A DNA stretch of 64,000 bases, taken from Chryseobacterium sp. SORGH_AS_0447 (GTDB lineage: Bacteria; Bacteroidota; Bacteroidia; Flavobacteriales; Weeksellaceae). Positions 28,088 through 36,536 of this stretch are shown in pieces. Every line of letters starts with the position of its first letter. Position 1 is the stretch's first letter. The stretch lies in assembly GCF_030818695.1 (NCBI RefSeq), contig NZ_JAUTAR010000001.1:434001-498000 (forward strand), given 5' to 3'. Below the pieces are notes generated by a model. That model did not search any database. It worked only from the letters and a program-made list of their open reading frames with translations, and had not been told where the DNA came from. The position numbers were made by a program, and so were the translations under genes.

Positions 28088-28117
28088 ACGGTTCGGGTTT
28101 CAAAATCTACCGCTCGG
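28088..28117 (+). promoter_or_regulatory. LytTR-type operator, site A
   Basis: Direct 9-mers ACGGTTCGG (28088-28096) and ACCGCTCGG (28109-28117) are spaced 21 bp start to start. They resemble the LytTR repeat [TA][AC][CA]GTTN[AG][TG]. Exactly 33 nt separate the second repeat from the -7 box TACTTTTG at 28151-28158. Confidence 0.75.
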
Positions 28118-28150
28118 TAACAAAAATTAAACATCCCCAGAATTTCGATC

Positions 28151-28158
28151 TACTTTTG
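28151..28158 (+). promoter_or_regulatory. -7 box of the TonB-receptor promoter (TACTTTTG)
   Basis: Matches TAnnTTTG; no -33 TTTG, as expected for a promoter that depends on the upstream LytTR site. Initiation is predicted about 12 nt before the ATG at 28177. Confidence 0.65.
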
Positions 28159-28176
28159 AACCGAAATAAAACAGCT

Positions 28177-30393
28177 ATGAAAACAAAACTATTATTTCTT
28201 ACCGCACTTTTTTCTTTTGCTTTACATATGGCACAGATTAAAATTTCAGGTAAAGTCACCTATAAAAATAAAGAACTGGATCAGGTAAACGTAACCCTGA
28301 AAGATACCTATGACGGTGCTACAACAGATGTTAACGGAAATTTCTCTTTTGAAACTTCAGAAAAAGGAAATCATGCGGTTGTCTTTACCCATCCGAAATA
28401 TGTGCCGGTTGAAAAGGCGATTCTCATCGGGAATCAGGATCTGGTTATCAATACGGAAATGAAAGAGCAGATCAGCGAGATCGATGCGGTTGTTATTTCC
28501 GTAGGTTCTATTGAAGCCAGCGACAGGAAGAGAGCGACCGCAGCCCTCACGCCAATGGATGTTTACACTACAGCAGGATCTCAGGGACAAACCACTACAG
28601 GATACAAATTTTTGCCTGGCGTCCAGAATGCCGGAGACAGCGAAGGCCTTTTTGTAAGAGGTGGAACGGGTGCAGAAACCAAGTTTTATATCGACGGGAA
28701 TCTGGTCAACAACTATTTCAGCAGTTCGGTTTCGGGCCTTGCGGGAAGGGAACGTTTCAATACCTCTATCTTTAAAGGGAGCGTATTCTCCAGCGGCGGT
28801 TATTCTGCCTTGTACGGTCAGGCCCTCTCTTCGGTGCTGCTGTTGGAAAGTGTGGATATGCCGGACGAAAGTTCCTACACATTCAGTATTTTCCCTTTTT
28901 CTTTAGGAGGAAATTATCAGCATCTCAATGAAAATAAAACCTTCAGCTATGGGGTTGATGCCAATATTTCAGATTTGGGATTAGTGACAAAAGTCCTTCA
29001 TTTTGAAACGGATTTTATTAAGGCCCCGAGAAATATTTCGGTAAACGGAAACTTCAGAATTAAAACAAAGTCCGGTGGATTCCTGAAATATTACGGAAGC
29101 TTTGATACGAATTCTCTAGCCGTTTCGCAGCCGAGCCTGGAACAGAATTACGACGAACAGCAGCCTTCGGTAAACGGAAAAAATACCTTTCACAGCCTTA
29201 CCTACAAAAAGAAAATGGGGCGTTACCTGATGAATCTGGGTTCTTCCTTCAGCATCAACAAAAACGACCTTGAAATAGGAATCATCAATGAAGGAAACAG
29301 GATCGGAAATGTAAATATGAATACGGAAGGGCTGTACTGGAACAGCAGGGCGGTTTTTGAAAGAAAGATTGCAGCAGTGAGCAACATTAAGGCAGGCTTT
29401 GAACTTCTTTCGGAACATGATAAAACCAACTTTTCGGTCTTCAACGCTCCACAGCAGCAAACCACGATCAGTAATTTTACCACCGCTTTATTTGCAGAAA
29501 ACAACCTGGCTTTCGGGCGTAATTTCTCTACAAGCTTAGGCATCAGAGCAGAAAATTCAAGCTTTCTGAACCAGTGGAATCTGGCCCCGCGCTTTTCAGC
29601 AGCATACCGCCTGTCAGAAAAATGGGTAACTTCCTTTGCCTACGGTATTTTTTACCAGACTCCGGAATCCAAATATTTAACGCAGAATTTTAAGCAGAAT
29701 TTCCAAAAGGCGACCCATTATATTTTTCAGATCCAACGCAGTGAGGAAAACAGGACCTTACGGATGGAAGCATTTTATAAAGAGTATAAAAATCTGGTGA
29801 AGACCTCGGCGTCGGGCTTTCAGAACTTTGTACTTCCCGATTACGGAAATGGTTTTGCAAAAGGGGTAGAGGTTCTGTGGAGAGATAAGAAGAGTATAAA
29901 AAATGTAGATTACTGGATCTCTTATTCTTATCTCGACAGTAAAAGGGAATTTTTAAATTATCCTACGGAGCTGTATCCGAGCTTCGCGGCAAAGCATAAT
30001 GTTTCCCTGGTCGCAAAGAAATTCGTGACTTCATGGAAAACAGGCTTTAATTTTTCCTACACATATACTTCCGGGAGGCCTTTTTACAATATCATCGCAC
30101 AAAACGGGGAAAATATCCTGAAATCGGAAGGTAAGGTGAAAGATTTCAATTCATTGAATTTCAGCCTGAATTACCTGCCAAATCTCGGAAAAAAAGATGC
30201 TAAAGCATTTACCATTCTGGTAGCCGGGGTAAATAATATTTTAGGAAACAAAAACATCTACGGCTACCGTTTCTCTTCCAACGGCGACAGGAGTGCTCCC
30301 GTTCTGCCTGCAGCCCAGACCTTTGTCTACATCGGTGCATTGATCAGTTTCGGGATTGACAAGACCCAGGAAGCTATAGACAATAATCTTTAA
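28177..30393 (+). CDS. TonB-dependent receptor with N-terminal carboxypeptidase-like domain
   Basis: A 738-residue outer-membrane receptor. A signal peptide (MKTKLLFLTALFSFALHMAQ) is followed by a carboxypeptidase regulatory-like beta domain (about 23-105, KISGKVTYKNKELDQVNVTL). A plug domain contains GYKFLPGVQNAGDSEGLFVRGG and FYIDGNLV, and the 22-strand-type barrel fills the rest. Such receptors import siderophores, vitamins or glycans using TonB-ExbBD; the substrate is not evident. The start at 28177 is chosen because an upstream TTG at 28156 falls inside the -7 box. It is preceded by LytTR operator A and followed after 51 nt by a small secreted protein gene. Confidence 0.9.
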   Translation: MKTKLLFLTALFSFALHMAQIKISGKVTYKNKELDQVNVTLKDTYDGATTDVNGNFSFETSEKGNHAVVFTHPKYVPVEKAILIGNQDLVINTEMKEQISEIDAVVISVGSIEASDRKRATAALTPMDVYTTAGSQGQTTTGYKFLPGVQNAGDSEGLFVRGGTGAETKFYIDGNLVNNYFSSSVSGLAGRERFNTSIFKGSVFSSGGYSALYGQALSSVLLLESVDMPDESSYTFSIFPFSLGGNYQHLNENKTFSYGVDANISDLGLVTKVLHFETDFIKAPRNISVNGNFRIKTKSGGFLKYYGSFDTNSLAVSQPSLEQNYDEQQPSVNGKNTFHSLTYKKKMGRYLMNLGSSFSINKNDLEIGIINEGNRIGNVNMNTEGLYWNSRAVFERKIAAVSNIKAGFELLSEHDKTNFSVFNAPQQQTTISNFTTALFAENNLAFGRNFSTSLGIRAENSSFLNQWNLAPRFSAAYRLSEKWVTSFAYGIFYQTPESKYLTQNFKQNFQKATHYIFQIQRSEENRTLRMEAFYKEYKNLVKTSASGFQNFVLPDYGNGFAKGVEVLWRDKKSIKNVDYWISYSYLDSKREFLNYPTELYPSFAAKHNVSLVAKKFVTSWKTGFNFSYTYTSGRPFYNIIAQNGENILKSEGKVKDFNSLNFSLNYLPNLGKKDAKAFTILVAGVNNILGNKNIYGYRFSSNGDRSAPVLPAAQTFVYIGALISFGIDKTQEAIDNNL

Positions 30394-30444
30394 TCAGAAA
30401 TAATTAAAATCAAATACAATAATCAATTTTAAAATTTAGAAATC

Positions 30445-31092
30445 ATGAGAAAATACGTTTTAAGTTTCGCTTTAGGCCTGATGAGTTTAGTAACTTATGC
30501 ACAGGCTAATTATGAAAAAGTAATGACTGAAAAAATAAGCAGGCTGGAAGACACAAGATCCCCTGAAGATCTGCAGATCCTGGCCAACGATTTTCAGAGA
30601 ATCGCCGAAAAAGAGAAAGACAAATGGCAGCCAAATTATTACACCGCACTGGCTTACATCCAAAAAGGCAGATCCCAGATGCAAAACGGCAATAATGCAG
30701 CACTGGAAGAAACGGCAGACCAGGCCCAGAAATTTGTAGATGCTGCCGAATCTCTTGAAAAAAACAACTCCGAAATTCATCTGTTGCAGAAGATGATCTA
30801 TTCACTGAAAATGATGGTCAATCCGATGGAAAGATTCAGGACTTTCGGTGCAAAAGCGGAAGAAGAGCTGAAAAAAGCAGAGCAGCTGGATCCTTCGAAC
30901 CCAAGAGTAACCCTGATCAAAGCAGAAGATGTTTACTATACACCAGAGCAGTTCGGAGGAAGCAAGACAAAAGGGATGGAGCTTTTTAAAACCGCTTTGG
31001 AGAAATTCAATGCCTTCAAACCGAAAACAGCCCTGGATCCGAACTGGGGGAAGATGGAAGCGCAGTATTTTTTAAGCGGCGCTGCGAAATAA
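30445..31092 (+). CDS. Secreted TPR-like protein of unknown function
   Basis: A 215-residue exported protein (signal peptide MRKYVLSFALGLMSLVTYAQA). The mature part is all-helical with TPR-like spacing, for example WQPNYYTALAYIQKGR and AEEELKKAEQLDPSNPRV. It follows the TonB receptor by 51 nt, so it is probably made from the LytTR-controlled transcript. It has no Cys and no lipobox. A periplasmic partner or scaffold role is a guess. Confidence 0.78.
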   Translation: MRKYVLSFALGLMSLVTYAQANYEKVMTEKISRLEDTRSPEDLQILANDFQRIAEKEKDKWQPNYYTALAYIQKGRSQMQNGNNAALEETADQAQKFVDAAESLEKNNSEIHLLQKMIYSLKMMVNPMERFRTFGAKAEEELKKAEQLDPSNPRVTLIKAEDVYYTPEQFGGSKTKGMELFKTALEKFNAFKPKTALDPNWGKMEAQYFLSGAAK

Positions 31093-31110
31093 TTCCGAAA
31101 TATACTTTAA

Positions 31111-31136
31111 AACCTTCTATTGCAGAAGGTTTTTTT
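31111..31136 (+). terminator. Intrinsic terminator of the TonB-receptor operon
   Basis: AACCTTCT/AGAAGGTT stem plus T7 tract. It ends only 3 nt before LytTR operator B, so the promoter region is tightly packed. Confidence 0.85.
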
Positions 31137-31138
31137 AT

Positions 31139-31168
31139 CCCGTTCAGCCACAAAAAACAACCGTTCGG
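31139..31168 (+). promoter_or_regulatory. LytTR-type operator, site B
   Basis: Direct 9-mers CCCGTTCAG (31139-31147) and ACCGTTCGG (31160-31168), spaced 21 bp. The second matches the LytTR consensus at every position. It lies 33 nt upstream of the -7 box TATTTTTG at 31202-31209, in front of the sensor kinase, implying autoregulation. Confidence 0.8.
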
Positions 31169-31201
31169 AAAAAAATAATTTTTAGTCCCTGCAATATAGC
31201 C

Positions 31202-31209
31202 TATTTTTG
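31202..31209 (+). promoter_or_regulatory. -7 box of the kinase promoter (TATTTTTG)
   Basis: Matches TAnnTTTG 33 nt downstream of operator B, with a predicted leader of about 10 nt before the ATG at 31227. Confidence 0.65.
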
Positions 31210-31226
31210 AAATAAGAAAACCGAAA

Positions 31227-32543
31227 ATGAAACGGAAAAACCTTATAACATTATGCTGGATCTCATTCGTGACCTCGATGATTTTTTTCTTTGGGTTCAC
31301 GGATGAAAAAACGCTGGAAAATTTCATGATCAACCTGGTGGTGTGCTTTATGTATTCATTTGTGTTGGGAATGGGCAACGGCCTGATCAACGACTTTCTC
31401 AACAAAAGGTTTCCCTGGTCGGAAGCAACTACCAAAAGGGCCATCATCAGTGTGGTTTCCATTTTAATTGCCAATATTATCCTGGTATATTTCTGCAATT
31501 ACATGAACTTCGTGGTATTTCAGAAAGGAGCAACAACGGAAGAGTTTTTCTCAGGAAAGTATGGGTTTATGAACTGGTTTACCATCAATATCGCATTGCT
31601 GATCTCTGCTTTTCTTCATGCCAAAGGCTTTATGGAAGAGCTGAAGAAGACCTCCAAAAAAGAAGTGGTTGAGCAGAAACTGATTGCCAAATCGGCCAAT
31701 GCCCAGTTTGAAAGCCTCAAAAATCAGCTGGACCCGCATTTCCTTTTCAATTCTTTAAATGTACTGAGCTCGCTGATCGATGAAAATCCGAAGCAGGCAC
31801 AGAAGTTTACGGCCTCGATGTCAAAGATTTACCGCTATGTTTTAGAGCAGAAAGATAAGGAACTTGTAACCGTTGAAGATGAGCTGGAATTTGCGAAAAC
31901 CTATTGTGATTTATTAAAAACACGGTTTGAAGACAGTGTAGATTTTATTTTTGATGTTAAAAAAGAAGATTACAGAAGGTTTGTGGTTCCGTTGTCATTA
32001 CAGCTGCTTTTGGAGAACTGCATCAAGCATAATTTTGCAACTTCCTCTAAACCTTTGATCATTAAAATTTTCTCCGAAAACGATACCCTTTGTATTGAGA
32101 ATAACCTGCAGGTAAGGGAACAGATCAAGGAAAGTTCAGGAATTGGTCTGGCGAATATCGTGCAGCGGTATTCTTTGCTGACGAAAAAGAATGTTTTTAT
32201 TGAAAAGTCCGAAGACTATTTTAAAGTAAAGCTTCCGGTACTTTCTTCCAAGCCCAATACAGTAAGTGCAGTACCGGAAGATAAAAATGAATCCTATGAG
32301 CGGGCGCAGAAACGGGTAAAAGAGATTAAAAGCTTTTACGGAAACCTGATTTCATACTGCATCATTATTCCTTTTTTAATCATTGTGAATTTGATGACAA
32401 GTCCGGAAGACCTTTGGTTCATCTTTCCGATGCTGGGCTGGGGAATCGGTTTGGCGGCACACGGAATGGGGGTTTTCGGTATCGGTAAACAGTGGGAAGA
32501 AAAAAAGATCAGGCAGATTCTAGAAAAACAAAATAAAAGATAA
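31227..32543 (+). CDS. LytS-type sensor histidine kinase fused to a 2TM domain
   Basis: A 438-residue membrane kinase. About four hydrophobic segments lie in residues 8-130. The His_kinase block follows with the phospho-acceptor in QLDPHFLFNSLN (His about 171), the N-box LLLENCIKHNF and the G-box SGIGLANIVQRY. The C-terminus (about 353-438) is a 2TM domain. Its segment LGWGIGLAAHGMGVFGIGK closely parallels the stand-alone 2TM protein at 35134. The fusion ties the kinase to the 2TM proteins downstream, and the partner regulator is probably the LytTR protein at 35793. Its promoter carries LytTR operator B. Confidence 0.92.
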   Translation: MKRKNLITLCWISFVTSMIFFFGFTDEKTLENFMINLVVCFMYSFVLGMGNGLINDFLNKRFPWSEATTKRAIISVVSILIANIILVYFCNYMNFVVFQKGATTEEFFSGKYGFMNWFTINIALLISAFLHAKGFMEELKKTSKKEVVEQKLIAKSANAQFESLKNQLDPHFLFNSLNVLSSLIDENPKQAQKFTASMSKIYRYVLEQKDKELVTVEDELEFAKTYCDLLKTRFEDSVDFIFDVKKEDYRRFVVPLSLQLLLENCIKHNFATSSKPLIIKIFSENDTLCIENNLQVREQIKESSGIGLANIVQRYSLLTKKNVFIEKSEDYFKVKLPVLSSKPNTVSAVPEDKNESYERAQKRVKEIKSFYGNLISYCIIIPFLIIVNLMTSPEDLWFIFPMLGWGIGLAAHGMGVFGIGKQWEEKKIRQILEKQNKR

Positions 32544-32552
32544 TTTAAAGCC

Positions 32553-32695
32553 ATGGAAAACATAAGTAAAGACGATATCAGGTATAAAGAAGCCGAAAGA
32601 CAGGTACAGAGAATTAAAAAGTTCTATATTTTCCTGTTCATTTACCTCGTAGTAAATATTTTTATTCTGGTACTGAACTATAGAGAGCTAAAGCC
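32553..32695 (+). pseudogene. 5' part of a 2TM-domain gene broken by the IS element
   Basis: The frame starts MENISKDDIRYKEAERQVQR, contains the first transmembrane helix (FYIFLFIYLVVNIFILVLNY), and reaches ELKP, where the IS begins. The remainder is at 34109-34281. Read-through into the IS adds a short foreign tail ending at 32735. Deleting the IS and one copy of the 10-bp duplication restores one continuous frame of about 106 codons. The gene follows the kinase by 9 nt and was probably co-transcribed. Confidence 0.88.
32686..32695. repeat. Left target-site duplication, AGCTAAAGCC
   Basis: A 10-bp sequence identical to 34109-34118 on the other side of the IS. Confidence 0.9.
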
Positions 32696-34108
32696 CAATG
32701 TCATTAAGTTAAGGTCTTATAGATTTTTTTTATAGTTTTTAGTGACCTTTGGTTTCGCTCTGACTCTGTATTTTAAAATATTCCTTTTAAAGGATCTTTT
32801 GGGTCTGACGGGGATCATATGAGAAGCAAAAAGAATTTTAAGCTCTGCCACTATATCCTCTTTTTTTACATTGCTAAAGAGCAAATTCAAAATTCTGTTT
32901 TTCATCAAGCTGTAAGAAAGGGAAGTATTGACTTTGTACCGGTACTTCTTTTTCGTATCAACTTCATTAAGCTCCTGTTCGAGTTCTCTGACAATAAGGG
33001 TCTGTATATTGCTTACAAGCAAAGTAGAATAGAAATCCTGTAAGATGCTGTTGTTTGAGTAACCGGAAAATTCCTCCAGGTGAAGCTTGTTTTTGATTTC
33101 ATCAAAATAGGTTTCTATGCCCCAGCGTTCAAAATATAGGGCTTTGAAAATCTCCGAAGGATAACAAGCCTCATCTAAAAGAGAGGTTGCAAGAACTTCG
33201 ATGGTGCCATTATCCAGTACGACACGCAACAATCTTACCTTAAAAGTATAGTCTCTACCATAATCTTTTCCTGACAGATCTACGTTGGGAGAAGGCTTAA
33301 AGTCTGTTATCATACTGGATATTCCGCTTTTGACGAAATCTTTTATGGTTTGGTTCAAACCTACTTTTACGCGCATAAGGTAGTTAAAATTTCTTTTGTG
33401 ATGCTGATAAAAGAAATCAAATGAAGCAAAACCACGGTCATATAGCAGCAGATCATTATGGCAACAATGAGCCAACAGCTCAAGAGCCTGTAAACGTTCA
33501 TCAGTATCTATAGAAGAAAGTACCCCTTTTAAACAGATTTTATTGATTGTATCATACAGTACGCAGGCTTTGGCCTGTACGCAGGTATGAGAAGTCTGGT
33601 TTTTGGATACACCATAAATCTCTTCCAGCTCTCGGGTTTGAGGTAGATTAATTCTCGAACCATCAATAGCCAACAGACGAAGACCATTGAATTTGGTCTG
33701 TACTGCAGAATTATCTGTATAGAATTCTTCCACAAGCCGCTTGTTCAGATGAATAAAAACCTCGGGCTTTATCTTTTTTCTGTTCTGTACGTATGCACTT
33801 TTTGTAAAAGTATTCTGTGTCTGGCCCAAAGATCTTATATAGTGAATGAAATTTACAATCTCACAGGACAGGCTTTTGGTAATGAAGTTGAGCATAAACA
33901 AAAGCGTATTTGAAAAGCTCAACTTCCTTTTGCGGGTGAAATCTCTGCTACTCATCCTGTATTCATTACAAATAGCCACGCTGTGGATTTCCTCCTCCAA
34001 TGATAATAAAATATCTGAAACATTTTTTTTGCATAATAAGAAAATGAAAGATTAAATCTCAAATTTAGCAAAAACATAACACTAAAAAATACTAACTTAA
34101 TGACATTG
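32696..34108 (-). mobile_element. IS4-family insertion sequence, complete
   Basis: A 1413-bp element bounded by perfect 16-bp terminal inverted repeats, CAATGTCATTAAGTTA at 32696-32711 and its complement at 34093-34108. It is flanked by the 10-bp direct duplication AGCTAAAGCC. It contains one intact transposase gene on minus. The 10-bp duplication and the YREK signature fit the IS4 family. Perfect ends and duplication suggest a recent insertion. It interrupts a 2TM-domain gene next to the LytS kinase and could have polar effects on anything downstream in that transcript. Confidence 0.95.
32717..34000 (-). CDS. IS4-family DDE transposase
   Basis: A 427-residue transposase. The first catalytic Asp lies in LLAIDGSRINLP, the second in LLLYDRGFASFDF, and the glutamate in the YREK motif Y-x2-R-x3-E-x6-K, read as YFERWGIETYFDEIK. 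A basic C-terminal tail (KRSFKRNILKYRVRAKPK) follows. The frame is intact and fills nearly the whole element, so it is probably active. Confidence 0.93.
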   Translation of the reverse strand: MEEEIHSVAICNEYRMSSRDFTRKRKLSFSNTLLFMLNFITKSLSCEIVNFIHYIRSLGQTQNTFTKSAYVQNRKKIKPEVFIHLNKRLVEEFYTDNSAVQTKFNGLRLLAIDGSRINLPQTRELEEIYGVSKNQTSHTCVQAKACVLYDTINKICLKGVLSSIDTDERLQALELLAHCCHNDLLLYDRGFASFDFFYQHHKRNFNYLMRVKVGLNQTIKDFVKSGISSMITDFKPSPNVDLSGKDYGRDYTFKVRLLRVVLDNGTIEVLATSLLDEACYPSEIFKALYFERWGIETYFDEIKNKLHLEEFSGYSNNSILQDFYSTLLVSNIQTLIVRELEQELNEVDTKKKYRYKVNTSLSYSLMKNRILNLLFSNVKKEDIVAELKILFASHMIPVRPKRSFKRNILKYRVRAKPKVTKNYKKNL

Positions 34109-34118
34109 AGCTAAAGCC
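34109..34118. repeat. Right target-site duplication, AGCTAAAGCC
   Basis: Second copy of the 10-bp duplication that marks the IS insertion. Confidence 0.9.
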
Positions 34119-34281
34119 GGGTCAAACAATATGGCAGCTGAAATATTTTACGCTTCCTATTTTTTGGGGAATTGCAGTCGTCATTCAGGGTTTGAGAGCT
34201 TTTGTTCCTAATTTTATGCTGGGAAGCAAGTGGGAAGACCGGAAGATCAAAGAACTGATGGAGAAAGAAAAGCAATCCTGA
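34109..34281 (+). pseudogene. 3' part of the IS-interrupted 2TM-domain gene
   Basis: The frame resumes inside the duplicated target and continues through the second transmembrane helix (FWGIAVVIQGLRAFVPNF). It ends with the conserved tail MLGSKWEDRKIKELMEKEKQ and a TGA at 34279-34281. It lacks its own start codon. The tail parallels DWEERKIQELMEEERK of the protein at 35134. Confidence 0.88.
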
Positions 34282-34324
34282 TTCCCTGTTTATAACCTTA
34301 AGTAAATCTATAATCCCTCATGAT

Positions 34325-34894
34325 ATGAAAACTTTACAAATCCTGTTTACCGTTTCTATGTTTGCCTGGTTCATCACGGAAATTCTGTACAAGAATATCC
34401 TGAAGTCCGGCGAAAATGATAAAAAAGACAAAGACCGGTCTACCCTCAATATTCTTTGGATGGCCATTCCGGTTTCCATTATCAGTGCCGTGTCGGTTTC
34501 TTATCTTACAAGATTCCCTATTTCTGGAGAGATGTGGATTCATTATCTGGGAGCAGCCTGCATCTGGATCGGGATTATTGTAAGATACGTTATCATCCGC
34601 TCTTTGGGTAAATATTTCACGGTGGATGTCACGATCCGCGAAGATCACAAGATCAAAAGGGAAGGGTTTTATAAATACCTGAGGCACCCTTCCTACGCTT
34701 TTTCGCTGCTTACTTCACTGGGACTCGGATTGTATCTCAACAACTGGCTTTCCCTGATTCTGGCTTTCGGTATTCCTTTTGTTGCTTTCAGCTACCGGAT
34801 CAGCGTGGAAGAAAAAGCTTTAATTGAACAATTCGGCGAAGAATATCTGGAATATCGTAAGAAAACAAAGAAGCTGATCCCGTTTATTTATTAG
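34325..34894 (+). CDS. Isoprenylcysteine carboxyl methyltransferase (ICMT)-family membrane protein
   Basis: A 189-residue multi-pass protein with the ICMT/PEMT-type C-terminal signature REGFYKYLRHPSYAF, then RISVEEKALIEQFGEEYLEYRKKT. These form the SAM and membrane-interface elements of the family. Bacterial members methylate diverse lipid-linked or small-molecule acceptors; the substrate here is unknown. It lies 43 nt after the broken 2TM gene and may have belonged to the same transcript, so the IS could reduce its expression. A terminator follows. Confidence 0.82.
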   Translation: MKTLQILFTVSMFAWFITEILYKNILKSGENDKKDKDRSTLNILWMAIPVSIISAVSVSYLTRFPISGEMWIHYLGAACIWIGIIVRYVIIRSLGKYFTVDVTIREDHKIKREGFYKYLRHPSYAFSLLTSLGLGLYLNNWLSLILAFGIPFVAFSYRISVEEKALIEQFGEEYLEYRKKTKKLIPFIY

Positions 34895-34989
34895 GCTTTG
34901 ATGAGGTAATATTAATTAGGCCTAAAACCAAAACCATCTACCTTAATGCCACTTGAAGTCTTAAAAAATCTTATTGATTAAACTGATTT

Positions 34990-35020
34990 AATCCCGATTC
35001 TCTGTTGAGTCGGGATTTTT
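34990..35020 (+). terminator. Intrinsic terminator before the 2TM genes
   Basis: AATCCCGA/TCGGGATT stem with T5, ending directly at LytTR operator C (35021). Confidence 0.85.
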
Positions 35021-35050
35021 ACGGTTCAGTATCCATATTCTACCGTTCGG
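35021..35050 (+). promoter_or_regulatory. LytTR-type operator, site C
   Basis: Direct 9-mers ACGGTTCAG (35021-35029) and ACCGTTCGG (35042-35050), 21 bp apart. 34 nt separate the second repeat from the -7 box TACATTTG. Confidence 0.8.
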
Positions 35051-35084
35051 TTATATAAAGTTGATTTGAGAATGCTTCCTGTGC

Positions 35085-35092
35085 TACATTTG
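35085..35092 (+). promoter_or_regulatory. -7 box of the 2TM operon promoter (TACATTTG)
   Basis: Matches TAnnTTTG. A possible -33 TTG at 35061-35063 is 21 bp upstream. Predicted leader is about 35 nt before the ATG at 35134. Confidence 0.65.
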
Positions 35093-35133: not shown

Positions 35134-35427
35134 ATGGAAACTTTCATCAACAAAGAAACCCAGGCTTACGAAAAAGCATCAAGAAGAGTAAAAGAACTTA
35201 AAGGGTTCTACGGAAACCTTACTTCCTATGTATTGGTTATTTCTTTTTTAGCCATTCTTAACATCATAACGTCACCGGAATATCTTTGGTTTTTATGGCC
35301 GATGATGGGTTGGGGAATCGGGATTGCTGCACACGCTGCAAGTACGTTCGGAATTGGAAAAGACTGGGAAGAAAGAAAGATCCAGGAGCTGATGGAGGAA
35401 GAAAGAAAGCACAACAAAACATTATAA
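35134..35427 (+). CDS. 2TM-domain protein
   Basis: A 97-residue protein consisting only of a 2TM domain. A charged N-terminal helix (YEKASRRVKELKGFYGN) precedes two transmembrane helices, about 28-46 and 52-72, the second containing MGWGIGIAAHAASTFGIGK. A charged tail (DWEERKIQELMEEERK) ends the protein. It is strikingly similar to the C-terminal domain of the sensor kinase at 31227, so it may pair with or modulate that kinase in the membrane. It is driven by LytTR operator C and followed after 32 nt by another 2TM gene. Confidence 0.88.
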   Translation: METFINKETQAYEKASRRVKELKGFYGNLTSYVLVISFLAILNIITSPEYLWFLWPMMGWGIGIAAHAASTFGIGKDWEERKIQELMEEERKHNKTL

Positions 35428-35459: not shown

Positions 35460-35735
35460 ATGGACTACAATCAGGCACAACAAAAGGTAAAAGATCTTAA
35501 AAAATTCTACAAAAGCGTTTTATGGTTCGCTATCGTAGCTTTCATCATATTTTTCAATGATATTTTTGAAAAGGGAATCTTCAATTTTTCATTGTGGGAC
35601 GGTTCGGTAATCCTGGCGATCTGGGGAATTATCTTAACCGTAAGAGCCGTAAAGCTGTTCCTTCTGGATGAAGAATGGGAAAGGGGAGTCGTAGAAAAGG
35701 AAATGCGAAAATCCAAGCAGCCGATTAAATTTTAA
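35460..35735 (+). CDS. 2TM-domain protein, second copy
   Basis: A 91-residue relative of the preceding protein: N-terminal helix YNQAQQKVKDLKKFYKSV, two hydrophobic segments with a longer lumenal loop (FEKGIFNFSLWDG), and the tail DEEWERGVVEKEMRKSKQ. It is more divergent than the 35134 copy and lacks the GWGIG motif. It is in the same operon as that copy and 57 nt upstream of the LytTR regulator gene. Confidence 0.82.
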   Translation: MDYNQAQQKVKDLKKFYKSVLWFAIVAFIIFFNDIFEKGIFNFSLWDGSVILAIWGIILTVRAVKLFLLDEEWERGVVEKEMRKSKQPIKF

Positions 35736-35792: not shown

Positions 35793-36536
35793 ATGATTAA
35801 GACAGTCATTATCGAAGACGAAAAACCGGCTTCAAGGAAATTGGAAAGAATGCTCAGTGAATTTTCTGATATTGAAGTGGTTGCCAAAATAGAATCTGTA
35901 GAAGAAGGCATCGACTGGTTTTCGGCAAATGAACATCCGCAACTGATCTTTTCGGATATTGTGCTCGGTGACGGCCTGTCGTTCGATATTTTTGAGACAG
36001 TCCGGACCAAAGCATTCATCATCTATACCACTGCTTTTGACCAGTACACATTGAAAGCCTTTAAGCTGAACAGCATCGATTATCTCCTGAAGCCGATTCT
36101 GGATGAAGACCTTACAGCAGCAGTGGAAAAATTCAGGTCATTTATCCCTTCCGATAATGCGGTCAATTCGCAGGAAATTAAGCAGTTAATTAAAAAAGAT
36201 AAATCTACGCTTTCCAGGATCCTGGTAAAAATCGGGTACAACCTTAAAATTGTACAGACCCACGAAGTAAGCTGCTTTTTCAGCGAGAATAAAATCGTTT
36301 ACCTGCAGACCCGGGAAAGAACATATCCTTCAGACTTCACTCTGGACGAACTGGAAGATGTGCTGGATGAAAAGAAATTCTTCCGGGTAAACCGCCAGTT
36401 TATCATCAATTCCGATTATATCAAAAACATTCATACTTCACCGACTTACAAAGTGGAGCTGGACTTTCAGCCGCAGGAAGAGATTACCGTCAGCCGCGAG
36501 CGGGTAAAAGACTTCAAAGACTGGCTGGTAAGCTAA
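35793..36536 (+). CDS. LytTR-family response regulator
   Basis: A 247-residue two-component regulator. The receiver domain (1-120) has the acidic pocket VIIEDE, phospho-acceptor Asp about 55 in LIFSDIVLGDG, and the switch region TTAFDQYTLKAFKLN. The LytTR DNA-binding domain (about 145-245) includes NKIVYLQTRERTYPSD and KKFFRVNRQFIINSDYI. It is the natural partner of the LytS-type kinase at 31227. The three paired LytTR-like 9-mers in this window are its probable binding sites, so it should control the receptor operon, its own kinase and the 2TM operon. Confidence 0.95.
   Translation: MIKTVIIEDEKPASRKLERMLSEFSDIEVVAKIESVEEGIDWFSANEHPQLIFSDIVLGDGLSFDIFETVRTKAFIIYTTAFDQYTLKAFKLNSIDYLLKPILDEDLTAAVEKFRSFIPSDNAVNSQEIKQLIKKDKSTLSRILVKIGYNLKIVQTHEVSCFFSENKIVYLQTRERTYPSDFTLDELEDVLDEKKFFRVNRQFIINSDYIKNIHTSPTYKVELDFQPQEEITVSRERVKDFKDWLVS

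Follow-up and report, generated by a model that had tools for sequence, protein, structure and literature searches.

This locus raises the question of whether a membrane receptor, a histidine kinase and a LytTR response regulator of Chryseobacterium sp. SORGH_AS_0447 are joined into one circuit by a shared operator and, if so, what that circuit delivers. The window, i.e. the whole stretch of 64,000 nucleotides (nt) that was analysed (G000, C1:434001-498000, in a 4.37-Mb single-contig genome), contains three pairs of 9-mers, which stand before a TonB receptor operon, a LytS-type kinase gene and a pair of 2TM-domain genes upstream of the regulator gene. An earlier note on this DNA (the original prediction) had read them as a self-regulating LytTR circuit with the receptor as output. 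The answer that I propose, with a probability of about 0.77, is that kinase and regulator autoactivate and, through these operators, would switch on a HusA/HusB-like system for uptake of a haem- or porphyrin-like ligand. Papers given by PMC number are cited from excerpts of their text.

Operators and promoter geometry in the window

All three operators lie on the plus strand. Operator 1 (28088..28117; ACGGTTCGG-N12-ACCGCTCGG) precedes the TonB receptor gene and a gene for a protein of 215 amino acids (aa), and is followed by a -7 box, TACTTTTG, at 28151..28158, 33 nt past the second 9-mer. Operator 2 (31139..31168; CCCGTTCAG-N12-ACCGTTCGG) stands upstream of the LytS-type kinase gene, again with a -7 box 33 nt past the second 9-mer (TATTTTTG, 31202..31209). 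Operator 3 (35021..35050; ACGGTTCAG-N12-ACCGTTCGG) is found upstream of the 2TM-2TM-regulator operon, with a TTG at -33 (35061..35063), 10 base pairs (bp) past the second 9-mer, and a -7 box, TACATTTG, 34 nt past it (35085..35092). The boxes belong to the TAnnTTTG type of Bacteroidota promoters (PMC9723704), and two 9-mers with 12 bp between them fit the general description of LytTR sites as two repeats of 9-11 nt, 11-13 nt apart, with no shared consensus (PMC4847170). Inspection of the sequence thus bore out the original coordinates, the exact 21-bp distance between 9-mers and the three box distances, and domain assignment did the same for the genes that the sites precede.

Allowing up to three mismatches, the pair pattern occurred at 3 places in the window, compared with a mean of 0.11 in 100 dinucleotide shuffles, none of which reached 3; this comparison is circular by itself because the pattern was written from the sites.

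The LytTR consensus has a conserved GTT core with a canonical G at position 4, and ACCGTTCGG, which I take to agree with that consensus, had been said to fit it throughout. Across 213 Chryseobacterium sites, C2, T6, C7 and G9 of the 9-mer were conserved at 99-100%, and position 4 was variable (A in 60% and G in 33% of first repeats; G in 43, A in 22, T in 18 and C in 15% of second repeats). This exact 9-mer agrees with the consensus, but the GTT core is weakened by these sites, as position 4 varies.

Conservation of the operators

The window was compared with 80 Chryseobacterium loci round the regulator gene (L031-L110; the best 80 of 276), excluding from the counts those upstream regions that were absent or lay within 150 bp of a locus end. 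With the window counted in each class, a best 21-bp pair matching at least 14 of 18 positions was present in 79/79 2TM-operon, 72/72 receptor and 62/80 kinase regions, and in 33 of 4620 shuffled regions; at 15 or more of 18, the numbers were 75, 69 and 53, and 3 of 4620 for the shuffles. The other spacings between 14 and 33 bp gave at most 10 regions per class at 15 or more, and a TAnnTTTG box stood 33 or 34 nt downstream in 208 of the 213 sites. When only the strict nine-letter motif was accepted, eight pairs in the 80 loci were spaced by 21 bp, and no other distance between 10 and 60 bp gave a pair. Random pieces (157 of 4050 at 15 or more) proved an unclean control, as they may contain real operators, and the shuffles served as the usable null.

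Pairs were also counted at each spacing from 15 to 30 bp, on both strands, in 40 loci from other genera and families. At 21 bp there were 50 pairs in 32 of these loci, all on the strand of the regulator, while every other spacing gave 0-6. Past these 50 pairs, 34 TAnnTTTG boxes were found within 60 nt, 29 of them at 33-34 nt, and 43 pairs (in 29 loci) lay at most 600 bp before a match to the kinase, the HusA-like protein or the receptor. In genome G125, where the receptor and HusA-like genes are 45-48 kb away from the regulator, each retains an operator 33 nt before a box, and the operator is likewise retained at an unlinked HusA-like gene (L239) and at receptors on the opposite strand (L240) or on another contig (L241); the operator therefore follows the genes and not the place.

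G125 carries an additional operator (L237, 8078, minus strand) some 150 kb away from the regulator. It stands 33 nt before a box and precedes the gene of an alpha/beta hydrolase of 264 aa, which is possibly a lineage-specific member of the regulon.

The receptor and the HusA-like protein as output

The receptor gene was listed as an open reading frame from a TTG at 28156; because this codon overlaps the -7 box, the ATG at 28177 is the likely start (28177..30393, plus strand). Its product has an N-terminal CarbopepD_reg_2 domain and is HusB-like by position. Searches of Pfam and NCBIfam returned nothing beyond this domain for the window receptor, with no Plug match, and a sequence search of PDB gave no match; in the homologous receptor of L036, Pfam detected a Plug domain.

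The 215-aa protein encoded directly behind it (30445..31092, plus strand) had been overlooked when the receptor alone was named as the output, a role that is otherwise supported. It has a signal-peptide-like start, belongs to a TPR-like family and reaches no Pfam cut-off. A profile built from 23 of its homologues matched PDB entries 6bqs/6crl, protein PG_2227 of Porphyromonas gingivalis, with an expectation value (E) of 6.3e-35 over 191 positions. PG2227 is husA (PMC10913741), and HusA, a haemophore with a TPR-like fold, binds both porphyrins and haem, which it is thought to pass on to the TonB receptor HusB (PMC6173696). Among nine HusA groove residues (PMC6173696), with numbering read from the profile alignment, M116, P126 and Y164 are identical in the window protein and L122, L123, W130 and L157 are replaced by similar residues, while F80 and Q160 are not kept.

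The last point counts against a haem or porphyrin cargo, and a circuit that works as proposed but serves some other ligand, with a HusA-like protein of different cargo, is a serious contender, if a minority one; TPR-fold proteins often bind peptides (PMC6173696). Against this stand the strong HusA homology and the seven groove residues that are identical or similar, and haem- or porphyrin-like uptake is accordingly the output that I favour.

The pairing of receptor and HusA-like protein extends beyond the family. A HusA homologue at E<=1e-8 was found in 47 of 295 genomes of the class, and in the 19 class loci with such a homologue that were examined outside the own genus and order, it adjoins a homologue of the window's receptor in 15. 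A LytS-type kinase and a LytTR regulator then follow in four of those (L288-L291). In L291, the receptor is preceded by a clear repeat at a spacing of exactly 21 bp (13 or more bases, one difference); L288 and L289 have imperfect repeats, seen by eye only, L290 has no repeat, and none of the four has a TAnnTTTG box. These loci are suggestive of the operator in distant TonB-HusA-LytS-LytTR clusters.

Some further observations concern the same two genes. The HusA-like gene has an operator pair of its own in L197, L199, L203 and L205 (in L205 without a box); the window copy has none and follows the receptor. Next to a second HusA-like gene of the own genome (G000:C1:109262-109915, L293), neither a receptor homologous to that of the window nor an operator match was found. 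Just before the -7 box upstream of the receptor, a palindrome near GTTTATATTATAAACTA (15-17 of 17 positions) was seen in L274, L276, L278, L281, L284 and L285, that is, in 6 of the 11 class HusA-receptor loci without a neighbouring LytTR pair, counted without a background; it is perhaps the site of another regulator for the same genes. Finally, the receptor came in two types at one locus when 16 loci were compared (the window, L032, L033, L035 and L091 on one side and eleven others in the range L036-L107 on the other), with 85-93% likeness within type A, 77-95% within type B and 53-59% between them. Both types carry the same kind of operator. Since the receptor types are only 53-59% alike although the regulators of these loci are 82-98% alike, the comparison suggests allele replacement of the receptor with the operator kept.

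Genome-wide scans and the identity of the regulator

Two models, one of the operator only (R1) and one of operator plus promoter (R2), were built from 60 and 40 training rows, respectively, with the window's three sites included, and each own-genome scan scored 150 candidates (of 3668 for R1 and 7169 for R2), so weak extra sites may escape. R2 found the three window sites at E values of 6e-15, 4e-14 and 2e-13, with the next best at 0.005. R1 performed weakly: operators 2 and 3 scored 24.1 and 27.8 bits, and operator 1 was found in pieces (14.1 + 9.3 bits). The best other matches, 3860429 for R1 (17.5 bits, an imperfect 21-bp pair) and 2424404 for R2 (E 0.005), lie inside open frames of 459 and 486 aa, respectively, and no TAnnTTTG box stands behind either of them on the matched strand. 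The scan for operator-promoter pairs that the original prediction had proposed thus singled out its three sites.

The genome encodes nine LytTR domains, yet only three comparable operator sites were found with R2. This number of candidates, together with the resemblance between repeats of different LytTR systems (table in PMC6193735), leaves some room for operators that are real and of LytTR type but bound mainly by another of the nine regulators, or by several. I consider this unlikely in view of how closely the sites accompany the window's regulator. Within the genus, a relative of the regulator is present in 118/118 genomes and operator-model matches were found in 59/59 genomes searched; 149 of the 150 matches listed lie within 20 kb of the regulator and the remaining one at a contig end. 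At E<=1e-60 the regulator occurs in 87 of 120 genomes of the family (23 of 33 genera, the own genus included) and in 11 of 295 of the class. For 40 chosen genomes of other genera, 20 with and 20 without the regulator, the operator was found at E<=1e-3 in 18 of those with it versus one of those without, and that one is 56% complete. These counts support the view that the operator goes with the window's regulator across genera. The comparative evidence as a whole, i.e. unlinked operators, co-occurrence with the regulator and the own-genome scan, likewise supports a dedicated LytTR operator, self-regulation and the receptor as output, as originally predicted.

Proposed mechanism

In the proposed circuit, the LytS-type kinase (31227-32543) would phosphorylate the LytTR regulator (35793-36536), a dimer of which would then bind the pair of direct 9-mers of the ACCRTTCRG type, which lie upstream of the -33 element and are separated by two helical turns, and activate promoters with TAnnTTTG boxes. 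Its predicted targets are its own 2TM-2TM-regulator operon, the kinase gene and the receptor gene with the HusA-like gene. With the regulator's own operon and the kinase among them, the loop would be positively autoregulated, and its output would be a system that takes up a ligand resembling haem or a porphyrin. The kinase is probably modulated by the stand-alone 2TM proteins, which belong to the family of its C-terminal domain.

Repression of these promoters by the regulator, in place of activation, is rather improbable. A -33 TTG follows the repeats at a distance of 10 bp in 78 of 79 2TM-operon promoters, the same arrangement as in the LytTR-activated promoters of LytTR Regulatory Systems (LRS; PMC6193735). 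The argument for activation is limited by the kinase and receptor promoters, in which a TTG at that position was found in only 3/62 and 5/72 cases, and a position of the repeats just upstream of a -35/-33 element is clear for the 2TM-operon class only. As the TTG is rare in them, kinase and receptor promoters may depend more on the activator. A point in favour of repression is a third, inverted half-site, present in 17 of the 72 receptor promoters (L072 and L107 are examples). It gives a dyad that includes the second half-site, such as AATGCCTTTCAGTAA...TTACAGAAAGGCATT, and extends into the spacer in front of the -7 box, a position that would suit repression; this dyad was present in 0/79 2TM-operon and 0/62 kinase promoters.

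Short as the motif is, chance or structural DNA as the source of the repeats was rejected and is extremely improbable, given their conservation compared with shuffles, the R2 scan of the own genome, the 21-bp peak in other genera, the way in which the operator tracks the regulator and the fixed spacing conserved in unlinked loci.

Besides the two groove residues, several results weigh against the proposed circuit. Of the 80 kinase regions, 18 scored below 14; 13 of these loci have a kinase in the fetched stretch and five (L060, L062, L079, L086 and L088) do not. Seven of the 50 pairs from other genera are not close before a regulon gene, of which five, located inside or behind genes, look like chance. 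No pair reached the scan threshold in 8 of the 40 loci from other genera (L217 and L219-L225): L219-L225 make up the whole set of the seven most diverged loci obtained from the family, and L217 has a weaker pair below the threshold, followed by a box after 33 nt. Relaxing the limit to E<=0.01 gave model matches in 19 of 20 genomes with the regulator and also in 7 of 20 without it. In the wider class, 11 of the 15 adjacent receptor-HusA loci had no LytTR pair in the 10.5 kb examined. Lastly, one study of P. gingivalis starved of iron and haem found changes in husA of only -2.1 to 1.3 fold (PMC10913741), while another calls the gene highly upregulated under iron limitation (PMC6173696).

For a Flavobacteriales two-component system, the analysis thus predicts a regulon that has sharp limits and a fixed promoter geometry; it also names a probable output, HusA/HusB-like uptake, along with a probable controller for a haemophore family.

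Kinase, regulator and 2TM proteins

The kinase (31227..32543, plus strand) combines a His_kinase domain (PF06580) with a C-terminal 2TM domain (PF13239). The regulator (35793..36536, plus strand), the proposed operator binder, has a receiver and a LytTR domain (PF04397, 76 bits against a cut-off of 22.6); together they show the composition of a LytS/LytTR two-component system. The NCBIfam model of BtsR gave 114.8 on the regulator, below its cut-off of 246.

Domain searches assigned two stand-alone 2TM proteins, a (35134..35427) and b (35460..35735), both on the plus strand. Another 2TM-domain gene, directly behind that of the kinase (32553..34281, plus), is split by a roughly 1.4-kb insertion sequence (32697..34107, minus) with a DDE_Tnp_1 transposase (32717-34000, minus) and flanking copies of GAGCTAAAGCC at 32685-32695 and 34108-34118; the gene is uninterrupted in relatives, e.g. 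L033, and the window's count of four stand-alone 2TM genes may include pieces of it. A PEMT/ICMT-family methyltransferase gene (34325..34894, plus), retained in many related clusters, lies between this gene and operator 3 and has no operator before it in the window.

Among the 114 loci whose kinase and regulator genes are at most 4 kb apart, at least one stand-alone 2TM gene was present in 100 of 105 loci with a 2TM tail on the kinase versus one of nine without the tail, and the operator is kept in five loci without any 2TM (L209, L212, L213, L216 and L235). This points to the 2TM proteins as partners of the kinase and not of the DNA step, and the stand-alone copies probably pair with the kinase and tune it. 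The uncharacterised 2TM domain thereby becomes testable, the question being whether stand-alone copies tune a kinase that bears the same domain.

Comparison with known systems

BtsS/BtsR is a LytS/LytTR two-component system, and YpdA/YpdB and BtsS/BtsR each control a transporter. Both share with the window the combination of a LytS-type kinase with a LytTR response regulator, and both differ from it in that the window's predicted output is an outer-membrane receptor with a HusA-like protein and its kinase has a 2TM tail. YpdA/YpdB responds to extracellular pyruvate (PMC4847170). In Flavobacterium johnsoniae, all five lines coevolved with B. thailandensis mutated in FJOH_RS09515 (LytTR) or FJOH_RS09520 (kinase) (PMC10197871, Table 2); since the tag numbers suggest adjacent genes, this is probably a different pair from that of the window.

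On the output side, HusA/HusB of P. gingivalis resembles the window in that a TPR-like HusA homologue adjoins a TonB receptor, and differs in that the window pair is under predicted LytS/LytTR control; in the excerpts of the P. gingivalis literature, hus is assigned no direct regulator. Another P. gingivalis system, HaeSR (PMC3764172), parallels the proposal as two-component control of haem acquisition in Bacteroidota. Its confirmed targets in the excerpts are hmuY, gingipains, ragA and others, and the terms LytTR and PG2227 are absent from the text of that paper.

A close architecture is that of the LRS of Streptococcus mutans, HdrRM and BrsRM (PMC6193735), which have 9-bp direct repeats, 12 bp apart and placed some 10 bp before the -35 element, and an autoregulated operon of a membrane protein and a LytTR regulator. 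The 2TM-regulator promoter has the LRS promoter layout (9-bp repeats, an 11-13-bp spacer, about 10 bp from -35). The LRS gene order, in which the LytTR regulator is upstream of a membrane inhibitor, is not found, as the window's 2TM genes are upstream of the regulator. Further differences are the receiver domain in the regulator, the LytS kinase, the Bacteroidota-type promoter, the ACCRTTCRG repeat and the uptake pair as an additional target.

It had also been stated that no such operator was published for Bacteroidota. This holds for the motif itself as far as searches of open-licence papers show, which listed no account of this operator, of a combination of 2TM and LytTR in Flavobacteriales or of hus under the control of LytTR. 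It does not hold for LytTR direct repeats as such: in the nearest published Bacteroidota case that I found, Zou et al. (2018; PMC6193735) list LRS-like operons of Bacteroides thetaiotaomicron and B. ovatus with LytTR direct repeats of 11 bp and an 11-bp spacer, 11 bp before TGTA-19-TATCTTTG. As in the window, LytTR direct repeats precede a TATCTTTG promoter in these Bacteroidota operons, and a membrane gene lies upstream of the regulator. They differ in the lengths of repeat and spacer, in the motif and in their NfeD/DUF2154 membrane protein; their regulator has membrane segments, and Table 3 of that paper mentions no kinase.

A broader picture, which I offer tentatively and at somewhat less than even odds, is that of a hitherto undescribed porphyrin- or haem-responsive two-component circuit of Bacteroidia, in which a LytS kinase would drive an autoactivating LytTR regulator in command of a HusB/HusA-type pair, the 2TM tail (in many lineages) and stand-alone 2TM proteins would serve as exchangeable membrane modulators, and the pair may have been swapped horizontally with its operator kept. 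Set beside the systems above, the geometry is ordinary for LytTR, while what is new, to judge by the open-licence literature, is the motif along with its promoter setting, 2TM companions and output.

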